64,000 nucleotides of DNA. Origin: Polynucleobacter hallstattensis. Lineage in GTDB: Bacteria; Pseudomonadota; Gammaproteobacteria; Burkholderiales; Burkholderiaceae. Below are positions 9,403 through 19,495 of this stretch, one piece after another. The position numbers were made by a program, and so were the translations under genes. Where the stretch lies: the NCBI RefSeq assembly GCF_018881835.1, contig NZ_JACVPO010000001.1, positions 186,001 to 250,000 on the forward strand, in the 5' to 3' direction. Every line of letters starts with the position of its first letter. The first letter of the stretch is position 1. The notes under the pieces are model-generated. The model had not been told where the DNA came from and ran no database searches. It was given only the letters and a program-made list of their open reading frames with translations.

Positions 9403-11163
9403 TCAGAAGCTTTCGCTTGGATTTCGCGGTTTTCGAGGACCTTTATTGAAGGGTTTGCGCCCTTTTGGTGCTCCGCGTTTAGGGCCATTTCCTGGGCTTT
9501 GCGGGCTTGCAGTTACAAAAGCAGACTGTCCGTGATGGACTTTCTTGCCTTTATTGCGGTTCTGACCTTGACCGCCCTGGCCGCCACCTTGACCGCCTTG
9601 AGTACCTGCGCCTGGACGCCCACCCTGGGTACGACCACGAAAAGGACCGCGCCCCTCGCTCGAACCACCACCGCCAGGTTTACCACCCCGACCTTGATGA
9701 GTGAGAGCGCCATGACCACTGGCCTGGGTTAAAGCATCCCGTGAGCCCCAATAAGAGACCGAGGTTTGCATTGGGTCTGGCTGAAAATCCCCGCTGGAAG
9801 CAGGATTACGGTCTCGTCCATGAGCTCCAGAACTGGGGCCACGACCCTTATCTTGGGGTTGAGGCATTTTTAAGCCTGCAAACTTCATTAAGTTATAGAT
9901 ACCGCCGGCTTCAATCTCTTCCCACTTACCCCGCCTCAAACGTGGAGGCAATAAGAAAATGCCATAACGCGTACGAATCAAACGAGAGACGACATGCCCG
10001 ACTGCCTCAAACATGCGGCGCACCTCACGGTTACGGCCTTCAGTCAAAGCAACGTGATACCAACGGTTCGCACCTTCCCCACCACCCATAGAAAGGCGTA
10101 AGAATTTGGCTTGGCCATCATCCAAGGTGATGCCACTCTTTAATTGAGCCATATTTTCTTGACTCAAATCACCCAAAATACGGACAGCGTACTCGCGCTC
10201 AACGCCGTAACGAGGATGCATCAAGCGATTCGCTAGCTCGCCTGAAGTCGTGAATAGCAATAGACCTTCCGTATTAAAGTCCAAACGTCCTACTGCAATC
10301 CAACGTCCTTGACGTGGCTTTGGCAAACGATCAAATACGGTTGGACGACCCTCTGGGTCGGACTGACTAACGATTTCACCGGAAGGCTTGTGATACATGA
10401 TCACGCGTGGCGGCTTAGTCTGAATCTTGCGATGTACTGGTTTGCCGTTAATGCGCACTTGATCGGTCGGCCCAATACGCTGGCCAATATGGGCTGGTAA
10501 TCCATTGACGGATACGCGCCCTTGAATAATCAAGTCTTCCATATCGCGACGTGAACCCATACCGACATCAGCCAGTACCTTGTGCAACTTCACAGTATCT
10601 TCGTCGTCAGCTTCGTCGTCTAAACCATCCAAGTCTGACCAAACTTCATCACGTAAGCTGAGCGGCAAGTCATCGATGTTGGCAAATTGCAGGCTACTCA
10701 TCTCATCATCGCTAGGCCCATCTGCATCATCGTCGTGACGAACACGTTGTGCGCGACGCTCTGCACCAGTTTGATGAGAGACCTCATTCTCATTCACACC
10801 ATCTGGGTTTTTAACTTCAATTACCTCAGGCGCATCTAATGCAGCATCGAATTCTCCAGAAACTACTGAAGCAAACAAGGCTTCGCTCTCTGCTGCATTC
10901 GGTGCCAGCTTGGCGGCTGAGTGGTTAGCTCCCTCACGCGCGCCGCCAGCCTCGCCCTCGCGACGAGGCCGATCCTTGTTAAATGGACGTTTCTTATTAA
11001 ATGGCTTACCGGCGCCCGCACCCTGACGGCGTGGACGACGTGGACCGCCCTCGCGTCCTTCGCCTTTTGCACCCTCTGAATGATTGGGTGCAGACTCAGA
11101 GCTAGAGGAGTTATCCGATGTAGGTTTAATCGGAGATGAATCGTTTTCGTTATGACTTGTCAT
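9403..11163 (-). CDS. rluB: 23S rRNA pseudouridine synthase, RluB/RsuA family, with disordered tails
   Basis: The 586-residue product is about twice the length of E. coli RluB. Residues 1-190 are low complexity, basic then acidic. An S4 RNA-binding domain covers about 191-245 ([20 protein letters not shown]). The catalytic domain carries [13 protein letters not shown] with presumed nucleophile Asp295, and ends near residue 425. The rest is a Gly/Arg/Gln-rich tail. The family makes pseudouridine 2605 in 23S rRNA. It follows scpB by 6 bases, a pairing common in bacteria. Confidence 0.92.
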
Positions 11164-11856: not shown

Positions 11857-12056
11857 AAAATTCGGGCTATCAGGTAAGGACCTGATGAGACTATAAAAAT
11901 GTATTTCAGTAATGGGTTGGTAGTGTTCTGGTGGCGCTATTTAGCTACAACGGGCAATTGAACTCCGAATATTCACATGGAGAACTACCCGCGCTGAAAC
12001 GAAGTCTTTTTCGCTCACCTCTAACTATTATAAGGGAGGCTCAATACAATAGCTAT

Positions 12057-12971
12057 ATGCACGAAATTACATCCCTAGCCCCTCTTTTATCCCCCGAGGC
12101 CGACACAAGACGACGTTTTCTGGGTTTAGGCCTAGGTTTAGGGGCTTTCATTGGGGGCTCAAGCCTAACTGGGTGTAGCCTAATGAGTAGTCGCAAGCCT
12201 GTCATTGGCCTTGTCTTAGGGGCGGGTGCCGCCCGAGGTTTTGCCCATGTGGGCGTTATTAAAGCATTAGAAGCGCAAGGTATTCGACCCGATATCGTGG
12301 TCGGGAGCAGTGCCGGAAGCGTTATTGCGGCACTACTTGCCTCTGGCGCTACCGGAAATGAGCTCAATCGACTTGCCCTAAATCTTGATGAAGCAACCAT
12401 TGCCGACTGGGGACTCCCTTTTGCTGGGAGATTTGGTGGCCTGATTAAAGGGGACGCCCTTCAAAACATGGTGAATCGTGAAGTACAAAATAAATCTATC
12501 GAACAAATGCGCATACCCCTGGGAATTGTGGCGACTGAACTGCAATCAGGCAAAGGTATTTTATTTCGCTCTGGCAATACAGGTCTTGCGGTGCGCGCCT
12601 CCTGTAGCGTTCCAGGCGTATTCCAGCCAGCAGTTATCAGCGGCAAAGAGTATGTTGACGGCGGCTTAGTTGCTCCGATACCAGTGAGTTATGCCAGGCA
12701 GATGGGTGCAACACTACTGATTGCGGTCAACATCTCATCAGAACCCGTTCATCAAGATGCCAGCGGAACCTTTGGCGTGATGCAACAAACCATTTCCATC
12801 ATGCAGCGAAGTATTAATCAATATGAGCTCAAAAGTGCTGATATTGTGATCACACCCCTTCTTAAACAAATGAGTAGCGGCGACTTCAGATCCAGAAATG
12901 CTGCCATCCTTGCTGGTGAGGTTGCAGCACAAGAGCAAATGGCGCTAATTAAAGAGAAGCTAAAGAACTAG
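12057..12971 (+). CDS. Patatin-like phospholipase, probable lipoprotein (RssA type)
   Basis: I chose ATG 12057 (304 aa) over the in-frame GTG at 11931 because it gives a complete signal: RRRFLG at residues 18-23 (Tat-like), a hydrophobic stretch and lipobox LTGC with Cys40. An AAGGGAGG motif lies 17 bases upstream, which is rather far. The patatin core follows: oxyanion hole GAGAARG (about 55-61), nucleophile elbow GSSAG with Ser85, and catalytic Asp201 in VDGG. The family hydrolyses acyl esters of lipids. It is transcribed away from scpB and towards the NlpC/P60-like gene; the physiological substrate is unknown. Confidence 0.85.
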   Translation: MHEITSLAPLLSPEADTRRRFLGLGLGLGAFIGGSSLTGCSLMSSRKPVIGLVLGAGAARGFAHVGVIKALEAQGIRPDIVVGSSAGSVIAALLASGATGNELNRLALNLDEATIADWGLPFAGRFGGLIKGDALQNMVNREVQNKSIEQMRIPLGIVATELQSGKGILFRSGNTGLAVRASCSVPGVFQPAVISGKEYVDGGLVAPIPVSYARQMGATLLIAVNISSEPVHQDASGTFGVMQQTISIMQRSINQYELKSADIVITPLLKQMSSGDFRSRNAAILAGEVAAQEQMALIKEKLKN

Positions 12972-12989
12972 AAATACTTAGCCGACGGC

Positions 12990-13673
12990 CTAGAGACTGC
13001 GAGATTTACGCTTGAGTTTATTCACTTCATTCAACAACTCTTTACGCTCTGTATCACCCAAGTTGTCACTGCCGTCTAAGCGTCGAGCGCCATCAAAGCG
13101 CTTATCCCAATAAAGACTACCGAGATCGTCTACACGCACGCTGGTACCTTTGGATGGGGAATGAATAAATTTATTGTCACCCACATAAATGCCGACATGT
13201 GAGAAAGTTAAGCGCATGGTGTTGAAGAACACTAAATCGCCAGGCTGCAATTCTTCACGAGTAATCGGTTTGCCCACTCGGCTCATTTGAGTCGATTTGC
13301 GTGGCAATAAAAAGCCTAATTTATCTTTGAAGACGTAGCCAACAAAACTACTGCCATCCAAACCAGATTGCGGCAACTCTGCATCCCAGCGATAACGCAC
13401 ACCAATCACTTCCATAGCGCGGTTAATTAATTCATCTGATTTACCGGTAACTGAGTCTGCCAAACGATCTGACACGCGAGCGAAGTAAGACTTGCCTGCC
13501 TGAAACATCGTTTCTTTGGGAGTCTCCTTAGCAAGCTCTGCTGAGACGTCTTTTGCAGCATCAGCAACAGCATCCACAGCTCGTGCAGGATTGGCAAGCA
13601 ATGTGATGGCAAGCAGCGTAGCGATCGGCAGTTGCTTAACAATCGCTGGTAGGAGGTCTTTTTTAAGGGACAT
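12990..13673 (-). CDS. NlpC/P60-fold protein lacking the catalytic cysteine
   Basis: The 227-residue product has a signal peptide (about 1-32), a linker and a C-terminal NlpC/P60 domain (about 83-200). Recognisable parts are GVRYRW, ELQPGDLVFFNT, SHVGIYVG (His159) and FIHSP (His171). The family motif DCSGF is here DGSSF: Gly107 replaces the nucleophilic Cys. Active members cut peptide stems of peptidoglycan; this one is predicted to be unable to do so and may only bind cell wall or a partner. The reading frame is intact and the other motifs are kept, so decay seems unlikely. Confidence 0.85.
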   Translation of the reverse strand: MSLKKDLLPAIVKQLPIATLLAITLLANPARAVDAVADAAKDVSAELAKETPKETMFQAGKSYFARVSDRLADSVTGKSDELINRAMEVIGVRYRWDAELPQSGLDGSSFVGYVFKDKLGFLLPRKSTQMSRVGKPITREELQPGDLVFFNTMRLTFSHVGIYVGDNKFIHSPSKGTSVRVDDLGSLYWDKRFDGARRLDGSDNLGDTERKELLNEVNKLKRKSRSL

Positions 13674-13811
13674 CGAACCATTCTAGCAAAGAAGATTCAT
13701 TTCACCAAGCGCTAACCCTTAGGGTAACCCTTTGTTTTCTATAGCATATTTACCAATATGGGGCGTAAATGCACCACTTTAGTACCTTGCAGAGCCTATT
13801 TAACTCAGGTC

Positions 13812-15479
13812 TTAGCTCAGTTCAGCGGCTGCAAAAAGCTCTTTGGTGTAAGTCTGGCGAGGGTGCTTAATGAGGGTCTCGGTGTCACCGAACTCCACCA
13901 CTTTGCCTGCTTTGAGCACCATCACCTCATGCGACATCGCCCGTATGACCGCTAGATCATGACTAATCATCAAATAGGCTAGGTTGTATTTCTTCTGGAG
14001 CTCAGTCAGCAAAGCGAGCACCTGTTTTTGAATCGATACATCCAATGCTGAAGTTGGCTCATCGAGCACCAAGATCTGCGGCTTCAGAATCAGCGCACGA
14101 GCGATCGCAATACGCTGTCTCTGACCGCCAGAGAATTCATGGGGATAACGCGTAAGAGCGGAACGATCAATTCCCACTTCTCGCAAAATATCGAGGACGC
14201 GGGCTTCACGCTCCGCTGCAGATAAATTCGGAAAATGCACATCCAAACCCTCTGAAACAATTTGCATCACATCCATGCGCGGAGAAAGTGAGCCAAACGG
14301 ATCTTGAAAAATCACCTGCAAACTCGAGCGCATGACTCGGCGCTCTAGTGGTTTTAAATTTTGCCAATCCCTACCTAGCACATCTACTGTGCCCGTGATC
14401 TCTGCTGCAGAATCACCCAACAAGCCTAAAACTGCCATGCCTAAAGTGGTCTTACCTGAACCAGACTCGCCAATCACACCGATGGTTTGCCCCTGCTTCA
14501 GCTCAAAGCCGACCTTACGCAGGACTTGATGACGTGGGGACTTTTTAAACCAAGAAGTAGATTCTGTGCCTGGATAAGAAACGGATAAGCTCTCCGTCTT
14601 TAATAACACCGGTGCTAAAGGCATTACTGGCGCTAAAGCGCGCACGGGCGCGCTGTTTACCAATGCTTTTGTATAAGCGTTATCCGGATGTTCAAACACT
14701 TGCTTCGTAGATCCTAGCTCCATCAGGTTACCTTGATTTAATACGGCAACTCTTTGAGCAAAGTGTTTTACTAAATTCAGATCATGAGAGATCAACAGAA
14801 TCGCCATGCCACCATGATCCCTAGACTCTTCTTGCAACTCTTTGAGTAAATCCAATATTTGCAAACGCAAGCTAACATCCAAAGCGGTAGTCGGCTCATC
14901 TGCAATGAGTAATCGTGGTTTACAAGCTAACGCCATTGCAATCATGGCACGTTGACGCTGTCCACCAGATAGTTGGTGAGGATAAGAGTGAAAGCGTTTT
15001 TCTGGCTCCGGAATACCGGTTTTCTTGAGCAGTTCAATTGCAGCAGACATTGCGTCGGCCTTAGAAATCAATGGCTCATAAATCTGCACTGCCTCAATAA
15101 TCTGATTGCCGATAGTAAACAAAGGATTGAGCGCGGTCATTGGCTCCTGAAAGACCATGGCAATCTCACGACCACGAATTTCACGAATTGCTTGTATTGG
15201 TAGGTCTAGTAAATTCACTGAAGGATTGCTGGCATCTGTACTCTTGCCATTCCACAAAATTCGGCCAGATGTTTTTGCACCCTCAGGTTCAAGGCGCAGT
15301 GGCGCCAGAGCAGTCAGCGTCTTACCTGAACCAGACTCTCCAACTAAAGCAACGCGCTCACCCACGCCAATTTCTAGATCAAGATGGCTGACCGCAAATT
15401 TTTCGCGCCGACCTGAACCGAATGAGATTGAAAAATCTTCATAGCGCAGGAGTGGAGTTGCAGTTTTCACGGAACTCAT
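13812..15479 (-). CDS. yejF: Oligopeptide ABC transporter, dual ATP-binding protein YejF
   Basis: The 555-residue product is a tandem ABC ATPase. The first domain has Walker A GESGSGKT at 47-54, signature LSGGQRQR and Walker B LLIADEP. The second has Walker A GESGSGKT near 337, signature FSGGQRQR and Walker B ILVLDEP. It powers peptide import by the YejBE channel. Its start overlaps the yejE stop by 4 bases. It is the last gene of yejABEF. Confidence 0.95.
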   Translation of the reverse strand: MSSVKTATPLLRYEDFSISFGSGRREKFAVSHLDLEIGVGERVALVGESGSGKTLTALAPLRLEPEGAKTSGRILWNGKSTDASNPSVNLLDLPIQAIREIRGREIAMVFQEPMTALNPLFTIGNQIIEAVQIYEPLISKADAMSAAIELLKKTGIPEPEKRFHSYPHQLSGGQRQRAMIAMALACKPRLLIADEPTTALDVSLRLQILDLLKELQEESRDHGGMAILLISHDLNLVKHFAQRVAVLNQGNLMELGSTKQVFEHPDNAYTKALVNSAPVRALAPVMPLAPVLLKTESLSVSYPGTESTSWFKKSPRHQVLRKVGFELKQGQTIGVIGESGSGKTTLGMAVLGLLGDSAAEITGTVDVLGRDWQNLKPLERRVMRSSLQVIFQDPFGSLSPRMDVMQIVSEGLDVHFPNLSAAEREARVLDILREVGIDRSALTRYPHEFSGGQRQRIAIARALILKPQILVLDEPTSALDVSIQKQVLALLTELQKKYNLAYLMISHDLAVIRAMSHEVMVLKAGKVVEFGDTETLIKHPRQTYTKELFAAAELS

Positions 15480-16501
15480 GAACGGCCTCCACTCATCGCG
15501 CCCGACTTACGAGAATCAAAGGCATCGCGTAAGGCCTCACCCATAAAAGTGAGCAAGAGTAAGGTGGCCACTAAAACAACAAAGGTCGATAGTGAAATCC
15601 ACCACGCATCTAGGTTACTTTTGCCTTGAGAGAGCAATTCACCAAGACTCGGTGTTCCTGGTGGCACACCTAAACCTAGGAAATCTAAACTGGTGAGTGA
15701 CAAAATCGCCGCACTCATTCTGAAGGGGAGAAAGGTAATAACGGGCGTCAGACTGTTCGGCAAAATATGACGGCGCATGATTTGAAGATTGGTTAAGCCC
15801 AATGCTCGGGCTGCACGAACGTACTCTAGCGCGCGATTACGGAAGAACTCTGCACGTACATAGTCAGATAAACCCATCCAACCAAATGCCGCCAGCAAAA
15901 TAACCAAAAGCCAAATGCTTGGGTTAAAGATAGAGGCAAAGATGATGAGTAAATATAACTCTGGCATCGCCGACCAAATCTCAATTAAACGCTGAGAGAC
16001 CAAGTCAAACTTACCACCAAAAAATCCCATTAAAGAGCCGGTGATGATGCCCACACTCACGCCAACAATGGTGAGTGCCAAGCCAAACAAAATCGATAGG
16101 CGAAAGCCATAAATTAAACGAGATAAGACATCGCGCCCACGATCATCGGTTCCTAACCAGTTATCAAGCGATGGCGGTGCAGGATTAGGTACTTTTGAGA
16201 AGTAATTGAGGGTTTCATAGCTATAAGGGATTGGTGGATAAATTGCCCAATTACCATTGCTAGTAATGTTGTGACGAATATCCGGATCTAAAAAATCGGT
16301 TGGTGTCGCAAAGTCACCCCCAAACACTCGCTCAGGTTGTGACTTCACAATTGGGAAATAGAATTTTCCTTCGTATCGAACAACTAGGGGTTTGTCATTC
16401 GCAATCAGTTCAGCCCCCATGGAAAGGCCAAATAGGATCATAAAGATCCATAGACCGGCATAACCCATGCGACTATTTTTAAATCGATGCCAGCGACTCA
16501 T
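15476..16501 (-). CDS. yejE: Oligopeptide ABC transporter permease YejE
   Basis: The 341-residue inner-membrane protein has an N-terminal segment (MGYAGLWIFMILFGLSMGAE), a periplasmic loop and a DppC-type permease core with the EAA-loop-like stretch RAEFFRNRALEYVRAARALG. The motif LGTDDRGRDVLSRLIYGFR is typical of DppC/OppC permeases. It overlaps yejB and yejF by 4 bases on each side (ATGA), which shows tight coupling. Confidence 0.95.
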   Translation of the reverse strand: MSRWHRFKNSRMGYAGLWIFMILFGLSMGAELIANDKPLVVRYEGKFYFPIVKSQPERVFGGDFATPTDFLDPDIRHNITSNGNWAIYPPIPYSYETLNYFSKVPNPAPPSLDNWLGTDDRGRDVLSRLIYGFRLSILFGLALTIVGVSVGIITGSLMGFFGGKFDLVSQRLIEIWSAMPELYLLIIFASIFNPSIWLLVILLAAFGWMGLSDYVRAEFFRNRALEYVRAARALGLTNLQIMRRHILPNSLTPVITFLPFRMSAAILSLTSLDFLGLGVPPGTPSLGELLSQGKSNLDAWWISLSTFVVLVATLLLLTFMGEALRDAFDSRKSGAMSGGRS

Positions 16502-17574
16502 GAGCCACCTCCCGCACCAAACTGGATGCGTGGGTCAATGTAGACATAGCAAAGATCTGAAATCAACTTCGTAAACAAGCCGATCAGCGTAAAGAGATAG
16601 AGTGTTCCGAAAACCACTGGGTAGTCACGTCGCATAACGGACTCATAGGAAAGCAAACCGAGTCCATCTAAAGAAAATAGGGTTTCGATCAGTAGTGAGC
16701 CCGTAAAGAAGGCACCAATAAATGCCGCTGGAAAGCCAGTCACCAAAGGAAGGAGCGCATTGCGGAACACATGTTTCCATAGCACTTGCTTTTCGGTGAG
16801 ACCTTTGGCTCTCGCAGTTAATACATACTGCTTACGAATTTCCTCTAGGAAAGAGTTTTTAGTCAGCATGGTGATCACGGCAAAGCTACCTAAAACTGAA
16901 GCGGTAATTGGCAAAACTAAATGCCATAAATAATCCATGACCTTGCCTATCATGCTGAGCTCACTCCAGTTGTCTGAAGTCAGCCCTCGTAAGGGGAATA
17001 TCTGCAAGAAACTGCCGCCACCAAAAATGACGAGTAAAAGAACGCCCAATACAAAGCCTGGAATGGCATAACCCACCAGAATCATCGTGCTCGTTACCGC
17101 ATCAAAGCGAGAGCCATCTCTGACTGCTTTGGCTATACCCAAGGGTATCGATACTAAATACGTGAGAAAGAATGTCCATAGACCTATGCTGATAGAAACT
17201 GGTAATTTAGAAACCACCAACTGCCAAACACTTTGGTGTTGGTAGTAGCTCTGGCCCAAATCAAATTGCGCAAAACGCTTGAGCATCATGAAATAACGTT
17301 CTAGTGGCGGCTTATCAAAACCATATAAAGCCTTCACCTCAGCCAAGCGCTCAGCATCTACTCCTTGGCGGCCACGATAGTTGCTGCCACCACCAGAGGA
17401 CTCTGCTCCACTCACAGCTGCATCACCCTTACCCTTAAGCTCTAGCATCAATTGCTCAACTGGGCCGCCCGGTACAAATTGCACCACAGCAAATGTCAGA
17501 GTTAAAACACCCAACAAGGTAGGAATCATCAAGAGCACACGCTTGAAAATATAAGACCACATTTGCCCCTGCAT
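16498..17574 (-). CDS. yejB: Oligopeptide ABC transporter permease YejB
   Basis: I chose ATG 17574 (358 aa), giving MQGQMWSYIF. It overlaps the yejA stop as TAATG and has GAGGGGG 5 bases upstream. A longer frame from 17613 would overlap yejA by 40 bases. The product is a DppB-type permease: first membrane segment VLLMIPTLLGVLTLTFAVVQ, then RYFMMLKRFAQFDLGQSYY, with the EAA-loop region LTARAKGLTEKQVLWKHVFRN. It forms the peptide channel with YejE. Confidence 0.94.
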   Translation of the reverse strand: MQGQMWSYIFKRVLLMIPTLLGVLTLTFAVVQFVPGGPVEQLMLELKGKGDAAVSGAESSGGGSNYRGRQGVDAERLAEVKALYGFDKPPLERYFMMLKRFAQFDLGQSYYQHQSVWQLVVSKLPVSISIGLWTFFLTYLVSIPLGIAKAVRDGSRFDAVTSTMILVGYAIPGFVLGVLLLVIFGGGSFLQIFPLRGLTSDNWSELSMIGKVMDYLWHLVLPITASVLGSFAVITMLTKNSFLEEIRKQYVLTARAKGLTEKQVLWKHVFRNALLPLVTGFPAAFIGAFFTGSLLIETLFSLDGLGLLSYESVMRRDYPVVFGTLYLFTLIGLFTKLISDLCYVYIDPRIQFGAGGGS

Positions 17575-19445
17575 TAGCGCGCCCCCTCTTTCCACCAATT
17601 GAGCAGAATCCAAGATTCAGCGGTGTAATACAAAGGCGGTTCTGGGTAGCGCATCTCTTTACGATACGCGATTCGATGTGTCGGGTTGTACCACTGAGGA
17701 ATCACGTAGTAACTATTCCAAAGGACCCGGTCTAAAGCTCTAGTAGCTGCACGTAACTCTTCGCGAGTCTGAGCTTTCACAATCGCATCTACCAAAGCAT
17801 CAACTACGGGTGATTGGACCCCAATCACATTGTCAGAGCCTTTTTCTTTTGCGGCCTGACTACCAAAGCGATCCCATAATTCATTACCTGGGCTTTGTGA
17901 ATCAGGGAAACGAATAGTGGTCATATCAAAATCGTATTCATCCATGCGCTTTTGATGCAAAGCAAAGTCACTGGTCCGAATATCCACCTGAATGCCTAGC
18001 TTCTCTAAATTGCGAACGTAGGATGAAATCACTCTCAAGAAAAATGGGCCATCCTCGACCATCTCAAAACGAAATGGCTCGCCCTGCATATTGCGTAAGG
18101 CACCATCGCGATATTGCCAACCAGCCTGAGCCAATAAATCACGCGCCTTGCGAAGGTTTTGACGCAAGCTATCGGGTGAGGCGGTTGAGGGTGCGGCTGG
18201 CATTGCATCAAAGACGGCATCCTGCACCCACTGAGGATATTGCGCTTTTAGAGGCTTCAGTAATTTCAATTCCGCTTCAGTCGGCTTACGGGGACCATCA
18301 AAATTAGCACTCAGATCACTGTTCGTGAAGTAACTATTGATACGGCTATATTGCTCGAAGAAGAGTTGGCGGTTTAACCACTCAAAGTCAAGCGCATAAC
18401 CTAAGGCTTGTCGTACCCGTGGATCCTGAAAAATCGGTCGACGTACATTCATTGCAAAACCTTGCATGCCTGCGCCATTGTGATTTAAGAAGGCCTTCTT
18501 TTCTAAGGTGCCATCATTAAATCTAGGACCCACATAACTCTTAGCCCAATTCTTCGCGCGGTACTCCACTAATGCGTCAAACTCTCCAGCCTTAAAGGCC
18601 TCTAAACGAACAGCATCATCACTATAGAGTTTGTAGTTCACGCGATCAAAGTTGTAAAAACCAACACGGACATTGAGTGGCTTACCACTTTGACCAGCCC
18701 AGTAATTGGGGTTACGTTTAAAGATCATGGTCTTGCCAGCTTTATAAGACTCAATCACATACGGGCCGCTCGCTATCGGAGCTTCAAAGGTCAACTTATC
18801 AAATGGTGTAATCGTGCCATCGGGTTTCTTGCCCCAGTTGCGAGAGAAGACCGGTAAGGTGCCTACCATCACGGGTAATTCAGGATTGCGATTCTTAAAG
18901 TCAAAGCGGATTACGCGATCCGAGACGACTACCGCCTGCTTTACATCGGCATATACCGTTTTAAATTGTGGATTAGCAAGTGAGCTCATCAAAGTATCAA
19001 AGCTGTGCTTGACATCACTAGCCAAAATAGGATTGCCATCTGAAAACTTCGCCTCAGGACGAATCCGAAACACCACTGACATCTTGTCAGGCGCTACCGC
19101 AATATCTTCCGCAATCAAACCATAGGCACTCGAGACCTCATCAGCACTGCCAACTGCCAAAGACTCAAACATCAGCTGAGCGATACCAGGCGCAGTCACG
19201 CCACGTAGCGTAAATGGATTGAACTTATCAAAGCTCGTTCGGCGATCGGGGTTAGGTAAAGTTAAGGTGCCGCCCCTTGGCGCTTGGGGGTTAACGTAAT
19301 CAAAATGGCTAAATCCATCAGCGTATTTGGGCTTGCCATATTGAGCGATCCCCTGCGCACCATGAGCCGAATCAAGCACCACCCCAGCCAGAAGGGCTAA
19401 GAGAAGCAAATTGGGGATTTGGCGGATGGCGAGGGGCATGGGCAT
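17574..19445 (-). CDS. yejA: Oligopeptide ABC transporter periplasmic binding protein YejA
   Basis: The product is about 623 residues from ATG 19445; ATG 19439 and TTG 19469 are alternatives, and none has a clear ribosome binding site. A signal peptide (LLLLALLAGVVLDSAHGA) is followed by a family 5 extracellular solute-binding domain with GGTLTLPNPDRRTSFDKFNP and YVIESYKAGKTMIFKRNPNY. It captures oligopeptides in the periplasm for YejBEF. It is the first gene of the operon and is divergent from fabI across about 50 bases, so the two promoters must overlap or lie partly inside coding sequence. Confidence 0.93.
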   Translation of the reverse strand: MPMPLAIRQIPNLLLLALLAGVVLDSAHGAQGIAQYGKPKYADGFSHFDYVNPQAPRGGTLTLPNPDRRTSFDKFNPFTLRGVTAPGIAQLMFESLAVGSADEVSSAYGLIAEDIAVAPDKMSVVFRIRPEAKFSDGNPILASDVKHSFDTLMSSLANPQFKTVYADVKQAVVVSDRVIRFDFKNRNPELPVMVGTLPVFSRNWGKKPDGTITPFDKLTFEAPIASGPYVIESYKAGKTMIFKRNPNYWAGQSGKPLNVRVGFYNFDRVNYKLYSDDAVRLEAFKAGEFDALVEYRAKNWAKSYVGPRFNDGTLEKKAFLNHNGAGMQGFAMNVRRPIFQDPRVRQALGYALDFEWLNRQLFFEQYSRINSYFTNSDLSANFDGPRKPTEAELKLLKPLKAQYPQWVQDAVFDAMPAAPSTASPDSLRQNLRKARDLLAQAGWQYRDGALRNMQGEPFRFEMVEDGPFFLRVISSYVRNLEKLGIQVDIRTSDFALHQKRMDEYDFDMTTIRFPDSQSPGNELWDRFGSQAAKEKGSDNVIGVQSPVVDALVDAIVKAQTREELRAATRALDRVLWNSYYVIPQWYNPTHRIAYRKEMRYPEPPLYYTAESWILLNWWKEGAR

Positions 19446-19495
19446 ATATGCAACAATTGTAGATAGCAAATCATATTTGAAGCAAAGGACACTAT

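Follow-up and report, generated by a model that had tools for sequence, protein, structure and literature searches.

The NlpC/P60 gene and its locus

The window, a stretch of 64,000 nucleotides of Polynucleobacter hallstattensis DNA, comes from a genome of 2.1 Mb in two contigs. The feature of interest is a gene of the NlpC/P60 family that stands at the end of a yejA-yejB-yejE-yejF run on a common strand (Table 1). The run is taken as a yejABEF locus because yejB scores over its cut-off and is joined by yejE, yejF and a gene for a family-5 solute-binding protein, all in the same orientation; yejF and yejE fall below their own NCBIfam cut-offs, though in each case that family is the best-scoring one. 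For the yejA-like protein no NCBIfam match was obtained at E <= 1e-40, and the true start of its gene is probably later than the first TTG. On the other side, the RssA-like patatin gene adjoins the NlpC/P60 gene tail to tail, as it does in most of the genus and family loci shown. A scan of 12850-14000 for promoters and terminators gave nothing beyond chance. Elsewhere in the window, a pseudouridine synthase (9403-11163, minus strand), which we take to be of the RluB type, has long Gly/Arg-rich extensions at both its N- and C-termini.

Table 1. Features of the locus, in window coordinates.
Feature	Position	Strand	Details and basis
Cys-less NlpC/P60 gene	12990-13673	-	227 aa; ATG-to-stop open frame; Pfam NLPC_P60, 90.2 bits
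Probable Sec signal peptide	13578-13673	-	Residues 1-32, ending ...NPARA, no lipobox Cys; by eye from the sequence
NlpC/P60 domain	13080-13403	-	Residues 91-198; Pfam match, AlphaFold2 model, PDB match
Gly107 codon, in place of the MepS catalytic Cys	13353-13355	-	MepS alignment, codon census
His159, first catalytic His, retained	13197-13199	-	115/115 and 14/14 distinct Cys-less sequences
His171, second His of the Cys-His-His triad, retained	13161-13163	-	115/115 and 14/14 distinct Cys-less sequences
Charged C-terminal tail	12993-13079	-	Residues 199-227; alignments
yejF-like ABC ATPase, directly upstream	13812-15479	-	138 bp gap; NCBIfam YejF, 576.6 bits, cut-off 834, best family
yejE-like permease	15476-16501	-	NCBIfam microcin C permease, 399.1 bits, cut-off 439, best family
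yejB permease	16498-17613	-	NCBIfam YejB, 462.9 bits, over cut-off 445
yejA-like solute-binding protein	17574-19469	-	Pfam SBP_bac_5, 228.7 bits, cut-off 32.4
RssA-like patatin, convergent neighbour	11931-12971	+	Pfam Patatin; RssA, 153.6 bits, below cut-off 272

An initial annotation of this DNA described an NlpC/P60-like protein whose nucleophile Cys had become Gly, with an open frame, a signal peptide and an otherwise intact domain. The interval that it gave, 13340-13673, marks a real feature but covers just the N-terminal half of the gene. The description itself stands. The bases at 13353-13355, GCC on the plus strand, read GGC (Gly107) on the minus strand, and two positions of the nucleophile motif are altered, D-C-S-G-F having become D-G-S-S-F. 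The whole protein contains no Cys. The frame runs from ATG to stop, and the N-terminus resembles a signal peptide when judged by eye. Elsewhere in the domain GVRYRW, LQPGDLVFFNT, SHVGIYVG and FIHSP are all found, and the protein matches the full length of the Pfam profile PF00877 (positions 1-105 of 105) with 90.2 bits, the cut-off being 23. Alignment to the structure of Escherichia coli MepS (2k1g) places the MepS DCSG motif at residues 106-109 and two MepS histidines at H159 and H171. An active C40 cysteine peptidase has its catalytic Cys at the start of the core helix, where this protein has Gly107; both catalytic histidines of such a peptidase are present in 129/129 distinct Cys-less sequences.

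Distribution of the Cys-less state

Orthologues were found at E <= 1e-35 in 180 of 186 Polynucleobacter genomes, and the motif was read individually in 99 of the 186. Gly or Ala occupies the nucleophile position in 83 of these 99, and Cys (DCSGF) in the other 16. When all 186 genomes were searched with a Cys-motif pattern, the same 16 matched and no others; 81 orthologues were judged solely by failing this pattern, which is weaker than individual reading. The Cys-less motifs are DGSSF (115 loci, duplicates included), DGSGF, DASSF, DASAF, DASGF and DASTF. The 80 loci from named contigs, which represent largely the same species as the genomes read, are all Cys-less. The state extends well beyond the source strain, and the refuting case foreseen in the initial annotation, a sister strain with Cys, is found nowhere but in a deep sister clade made up of 16 species genomes. 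Outside the genus the motif is uniform. A family search of 200 genomes from 25 genera gave a match in 22 of the genera, and in the 16 non-Polynucleobacter genomes where the motif was read, from 15 genera, all 16 loci have DCSGF.

In the Cys-less clades position 107 is exclusively Gly or Ala (GGN or GCN codons). Across 164 Cys-less loci, with duplicates counted, the alignment has no Cys beyond position 34, and this rules out a substitute cysteine elsewhere in the domain. The few cysteines that these loci do have are confined to the signal-peptide region and the part preceding it. Six genus genomes gave no match for the orthologue: five drafts of 75 to 93% completeness, in one of which (G025) the gene is cut at a contig end, and the genome G315.

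The Cys-bearing paralogue that the initial annotation suggested looking for is present. The source genome has a further NlpC/P60 gene at another site (G000:C2:626777-627181), and its motif is DCSGL. Two NlpC/P60 matches occur in 55/61 genus genomes, and in the 15 where the second copy was read it has DCSGL without exception.

Linkage to the yejABEF importer

The gene travels with the importer. Within the genus, clade C has the Cys and clades A and X do not. Immediately upstream, and in the same orientation, there is a yejF gene in 147/150 clade X, 14/14 clade A and 32/32 clade C loci; these counts include several duplicate loci from single genomes and some loci truncated at contig ends. The same holds in 15/16 loci of other Burkholderiaceae genera. 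Since the linkage is kept across the clades and in other genera, it predates Polynucleobacter. Of the matches in other families of the order, the 27 best were fetched and none showed it, so that it looks like a trait of Burkholderiaceae.

One complete genome lacks both genes. In G315, a single contig of 1.7 Mb that is 99% complete, neither yejB nor the NlpC/P60 orthologue gave a match, and the Cys-bearing paralogue is kept. An 80%-complete draft, G051, is also without yejB and the orthologue. The co-loss of yejB and the NlpC/P60 gene rests on one complete genome and favours a shared pathway.

AmpG is the usual muropeptide importer. It scores over its cut-off in 58/61 genus genomes, so that Yej need not be a muropeptide importer here, and the idea of Yej as the sole such importer is weakened.

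The other Burkholderiaceae genera deserve a remark of their own. Among 16 loci from 15 genera, 15 have yejABEF followed by an NlpC/P60 gene of the active type (DCSGF). This is a conserved pairing of peptidase and importer, and no discussion of it was found in the literature searched.

A probable single loss of the cysteine

The relationships of the three clades were examined with RpoB and an RpoC fragment in 21 genomes. Twenty-seven had been searched for rpoB; five were without a match, and G196 was left out because its rpoB is in two pieces. On this tree A and X form a clade with support of 100/99, and an AU test rejects the alternative groupings A+C (p 0.005) and C+X (p 0.002). When Yej and RssA are added (three of the 21 genomes having no Yej rows), A+X again has support of 100/99, and the alternatives have p 0.019 and 0.001. 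Trees of YejF, YejE and YejB only, on two thinned sets, leave the order of the clades unresolved: A joins C with support of 58 (62 rows) or 88/74 (49 rows), and the corresponding AU test does not reject A+X (p 0.365). Two independent losses of the Cys, as the yej-only trees would suggest, are thus rejected by the RpoB/RpoC tree. On that tree the Cys species are sister to the Cys-less ones, and therefore one ancient loss suffices. A single loss in the ancestor of A and X, after its split from clade C, would be the simplest history.

Selection and conservation

The domain is under strong purifying selection. Its median pN/pS is 0.034 in the crown group with DGSSF (71 loci, from named contigs only), 0.046 in the Cys clade (15 of 16 genomes, G027 being out) and 0.072 in clade A (10 of 14 loci), all of these values being rough because median pS is near saturation (about 0.7). 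For YejF in the same groups the medians are 0.123, 0.184 and 0.271. YejB (0.056) and YejE (0.079) in the crown group also lie above the domain. With or without the Cys, the domain is the most constrained stretch when compared with YejF, YejE, YejB, the RssA-like protein and its own N-terminus. Its pN relative to that of YejF is about 0.26 in the X crown, 0.25 in A and 0.20 in C.

The level of constraint has shifted to some extent. The ratio of domain change to YejBEF change, taken over residues 80-200 in 18 genomes on a fixed topology (single estimates without error bars), is 2.25 on the A+X stem, 1.43 on the A stem, 0.79 on the X stem and 0.39 on the C stem. The ratios within clades, obtained in the same way, are 0.36 in C (4 genomes), 0.75 in X (6 genomes, all subclades) and 0.17 in A (only 2 genomes). 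Taken over all its subclades, X is under looser constraint than C. The pattern looks like a burst of change in the domain on the branch where the Cys was lost, followed by renewed constraint that is clearest in the X crown.

Sixty columns show no variation across the family outgroup plus clade C; X retains 50 of them and A 46. Columns 97, 98, 107, 109, 112, 123, 125 and 174 are lost in both; the first five fall in the helix of the nucleophile or immediately ahead of it. In addition to the two histidines of Table 1, Tyr94, Asp106, Ser108 and Phe110 are kept in 115/115 distinct X sequences and 14/14 from A. With the domain so conserved overall, the fact that both histidines remain is not in itself proof that they are used.

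Clade A (L059-L062, L230-L239), which has larger genomes (2.3-3.2 Mb), differs in detail. One residue is missing in the loop before the nucleophile, and the C-terminal tail is shorter (median 16 vs 29 residues).

Predicted structure

An AlphaFold2 model of the full-length protein is poor (mean pLDDT 49.8) and was replaced by a model of the domain, residues 60-203, built with 44 sequences (mean pLDDT 86.6). The best PDB match of the domain model is the NlpC/P60 autolysin domain 7cfl, with Z 22.5 and an rmsd of 1.3 over 121 residues; Z is about 21 against MepS and 18 against RipD. The model predicts an intact papain-like NlpC/P60 fold. Before the domain, residues 53-82 are partly conserved in the crown clade, and a helix is predicted at low confidence for residues 53-72 (13458-13517, minus strand).

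A pseudo-peptidase and its possible role

The suggestion in the initial annotation of a preserved pseudoenzyme is supported by the census (83/99 Cys-less), by 164 loci with no Cys in the domain, by the very low pN/pS and by the intact predicted fold. The protein is very probably a conserved pseudoenzyme that does not hydrolyse peptidoglycan. A putative role as a wall-binding or regulatory subunit, also part of that suggestion, is plausible. The loss of the sole thiol, together with an intact cleft and strong constraint, argues for a binding function.

The explanation favoured here begins with a Cys-bearing NlpC/P60 protein of Burkholderiaceae encoded directly after yejABEF, which may have been a MepS-like peptidase working beside a peptide importer. 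A single loss of its nucleophile, in the common ancestor of the Polynucleobacter clades without Cys, would have left an exported pseudo-peptidase. The retained cleft (Tyr94, Asp106, Ser108, His159 and His171) could then hold a peptide in the periplasm without cutting it, perhaps a peptidoglycan stem peptide, perhaps another one. In view of the linkage to yejABEF, the peptide that it binds, or its partner, would most likely belong to the pathway of the importer, where the protein might present or gate wall-derived peptides. This full reading, a pseudo-peptidase that binds peptides in the Yej pathway, has somewhat less than an even chance of being right. Homology, an intact predicted fold, the loss of the Cys (once, on the RpoB/RpoC tree), purifying selection and the yej linkage are observed; the absence of hydrolysis, the ligand, the partner and the link to import are inferred from them. 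In a more specific and rather unlikely form, the peptidase would have turned into an accessory binder of the ABC importer, its cleft capturing wall-derived or environmental peptides and handing them to YejABEF; the Cys-bearing sister clade would then still display the enzyme of origin.

Other readings were weighed. The protein might serve another wall enzyme, such as the Cys-bearing second NlpC/P60 protein, as its allosteric activator, adaptor or decoy, the yej linkage being merely inherited gene order. An active-type partner does exist, as the DCSGL motif of the second copy in the 15 genus genomes read indicates, and the partly conserved stretch before the domain (residues 53-82) could be a binding surface. 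Against such a role stand a yej linkage kept across genera of the family and through three clades, and G315, which keeps the paralogue and is without yejB and the NlpC/P60 orthologue. An activator or adaptor seems a possibility of secondary standing, less probable than binding in the Yej pathway.

It might also be argued that the protein is still an enzyme with different chemistry, in which Ser108 or Ser109, a water activated by His159 and His171, or a metal bound by these residues replaces the thiol. Both histidines, Tyr94, Asp106 and Ser108 are indeed kept in all 129 distinct Cys-less sequences, and the residue in the pocket is always small, either Gly or Ala. Yet the Cys enzymes keep Ser108 just as invariantly, and some Cys-less members have Gly, Ala or Thr in place of Ser109, so that a new serine nucleophile is ruled out; and with conservation of the domain so high overall, the retention of single residues is not strong evidence. 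Altered chemistry is accordingly improbable. The one complete genus genome without the gene (G315) might suggest a strain mutation, a sequencing error or a gene that is being lost, but the Cys-less state occurs in 83 of the 99 genomes read, over many assemblies, and the domain pN/pS of 0.034 is not that of a decaying gene. The motif census and pN/pS together rule out a pseudogene or an error, and this last reading is hardly credible.

The pseudo-peptidase of Polynucleobacter offers a natural before-and-after pair in one genus and at one conserved locus, 16 genomes with the thiol and 83 without it among the 99 read. The transition from hydrolase to binding protein becomes directly testable with closely related natural proteins. 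The locus also hints that the YejABEF importer of Burkholderiaceae may have a partner that has gone unstudied.

Comparison with known systems

The closest characterized relative is MepS/Spr of E. coli, an NlpC/P60 enzyme that acts on murein as a DD-endopeptidase and LD-carboxypeptidase. It is the best match by sequence among solved structures (7v6s, E 4.8e-21) and the best NCBIfam match (95.3 bits), with the same fold and both histidines aligned; the score is below the cut-off of 186 for the MepS equivalog NF008096. Unlike MepS, the window protein has Gly for the catalytic Cys and is encoded after yejABEF. It also has no lipid-anchor Cys and hence is not a lipoprotein.

A functional parallel is provided by EnvC and NlpD, degenerate LytM factors in which a wall hydrolase fold without catalytic residues serves as an amidase activator. 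These differ from the window protein in having the unrelated M23 metallopeptidase fold and different partners.

The importer has its own parallel. In Agrobacterium, YejBEF, a transporter of the same family as the one encoded directly upstream of the window gene, imports muropeptides with YepA, and YepA rather than YejA is the muropeptide binder (PMC9790009). This suggests a wall-peptide theme for the Polynucleobacter locus as well. YepA was found by its authors only in Alphaproteobacteria, and the term NlpC is absent from the main text of that paper (PMC9790009). In the literature searched, no co-mention of Polynucleobacter with NlpC was found, and the sole co-mention found of yej, NlpC and Burkholderia was in a review of gut peptidoglycan.

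Inactive members of the wider fold have been described. DUF1175 (PF06672) is reported as an inactive, peptidoglycan-binding papain-like domain and is grouped with NlpC/P60, CHAP and amidases (PMC10318531). The window protein is different in that it matches NLPC_P60 and has no DUF1175 match up to E 1. RipD of Mycobacterium tuberculosis, described as a noncatalytic, peptidoglycan-binding NlpC/P60 protein (PMC12067865), resembles the window protein in combining this fold with the absence of the nucleophile. The window protein scores 37.1 bits against the RipD family NF033743, where the cut-off is 215. The triad of RipD is given as Ala-Ser-Glu (PMC12067865), whereas that of the window protein is Gly-His-His, only the nucleophile being gone. 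Unlike that of RipD, the Cys loss in the lineage of the window protein lies inside Polynucleobacter. A protein of this kind is already known from RipD and DUF1175; what is new here is a loss within Polynucleobacter that spared both histidines.
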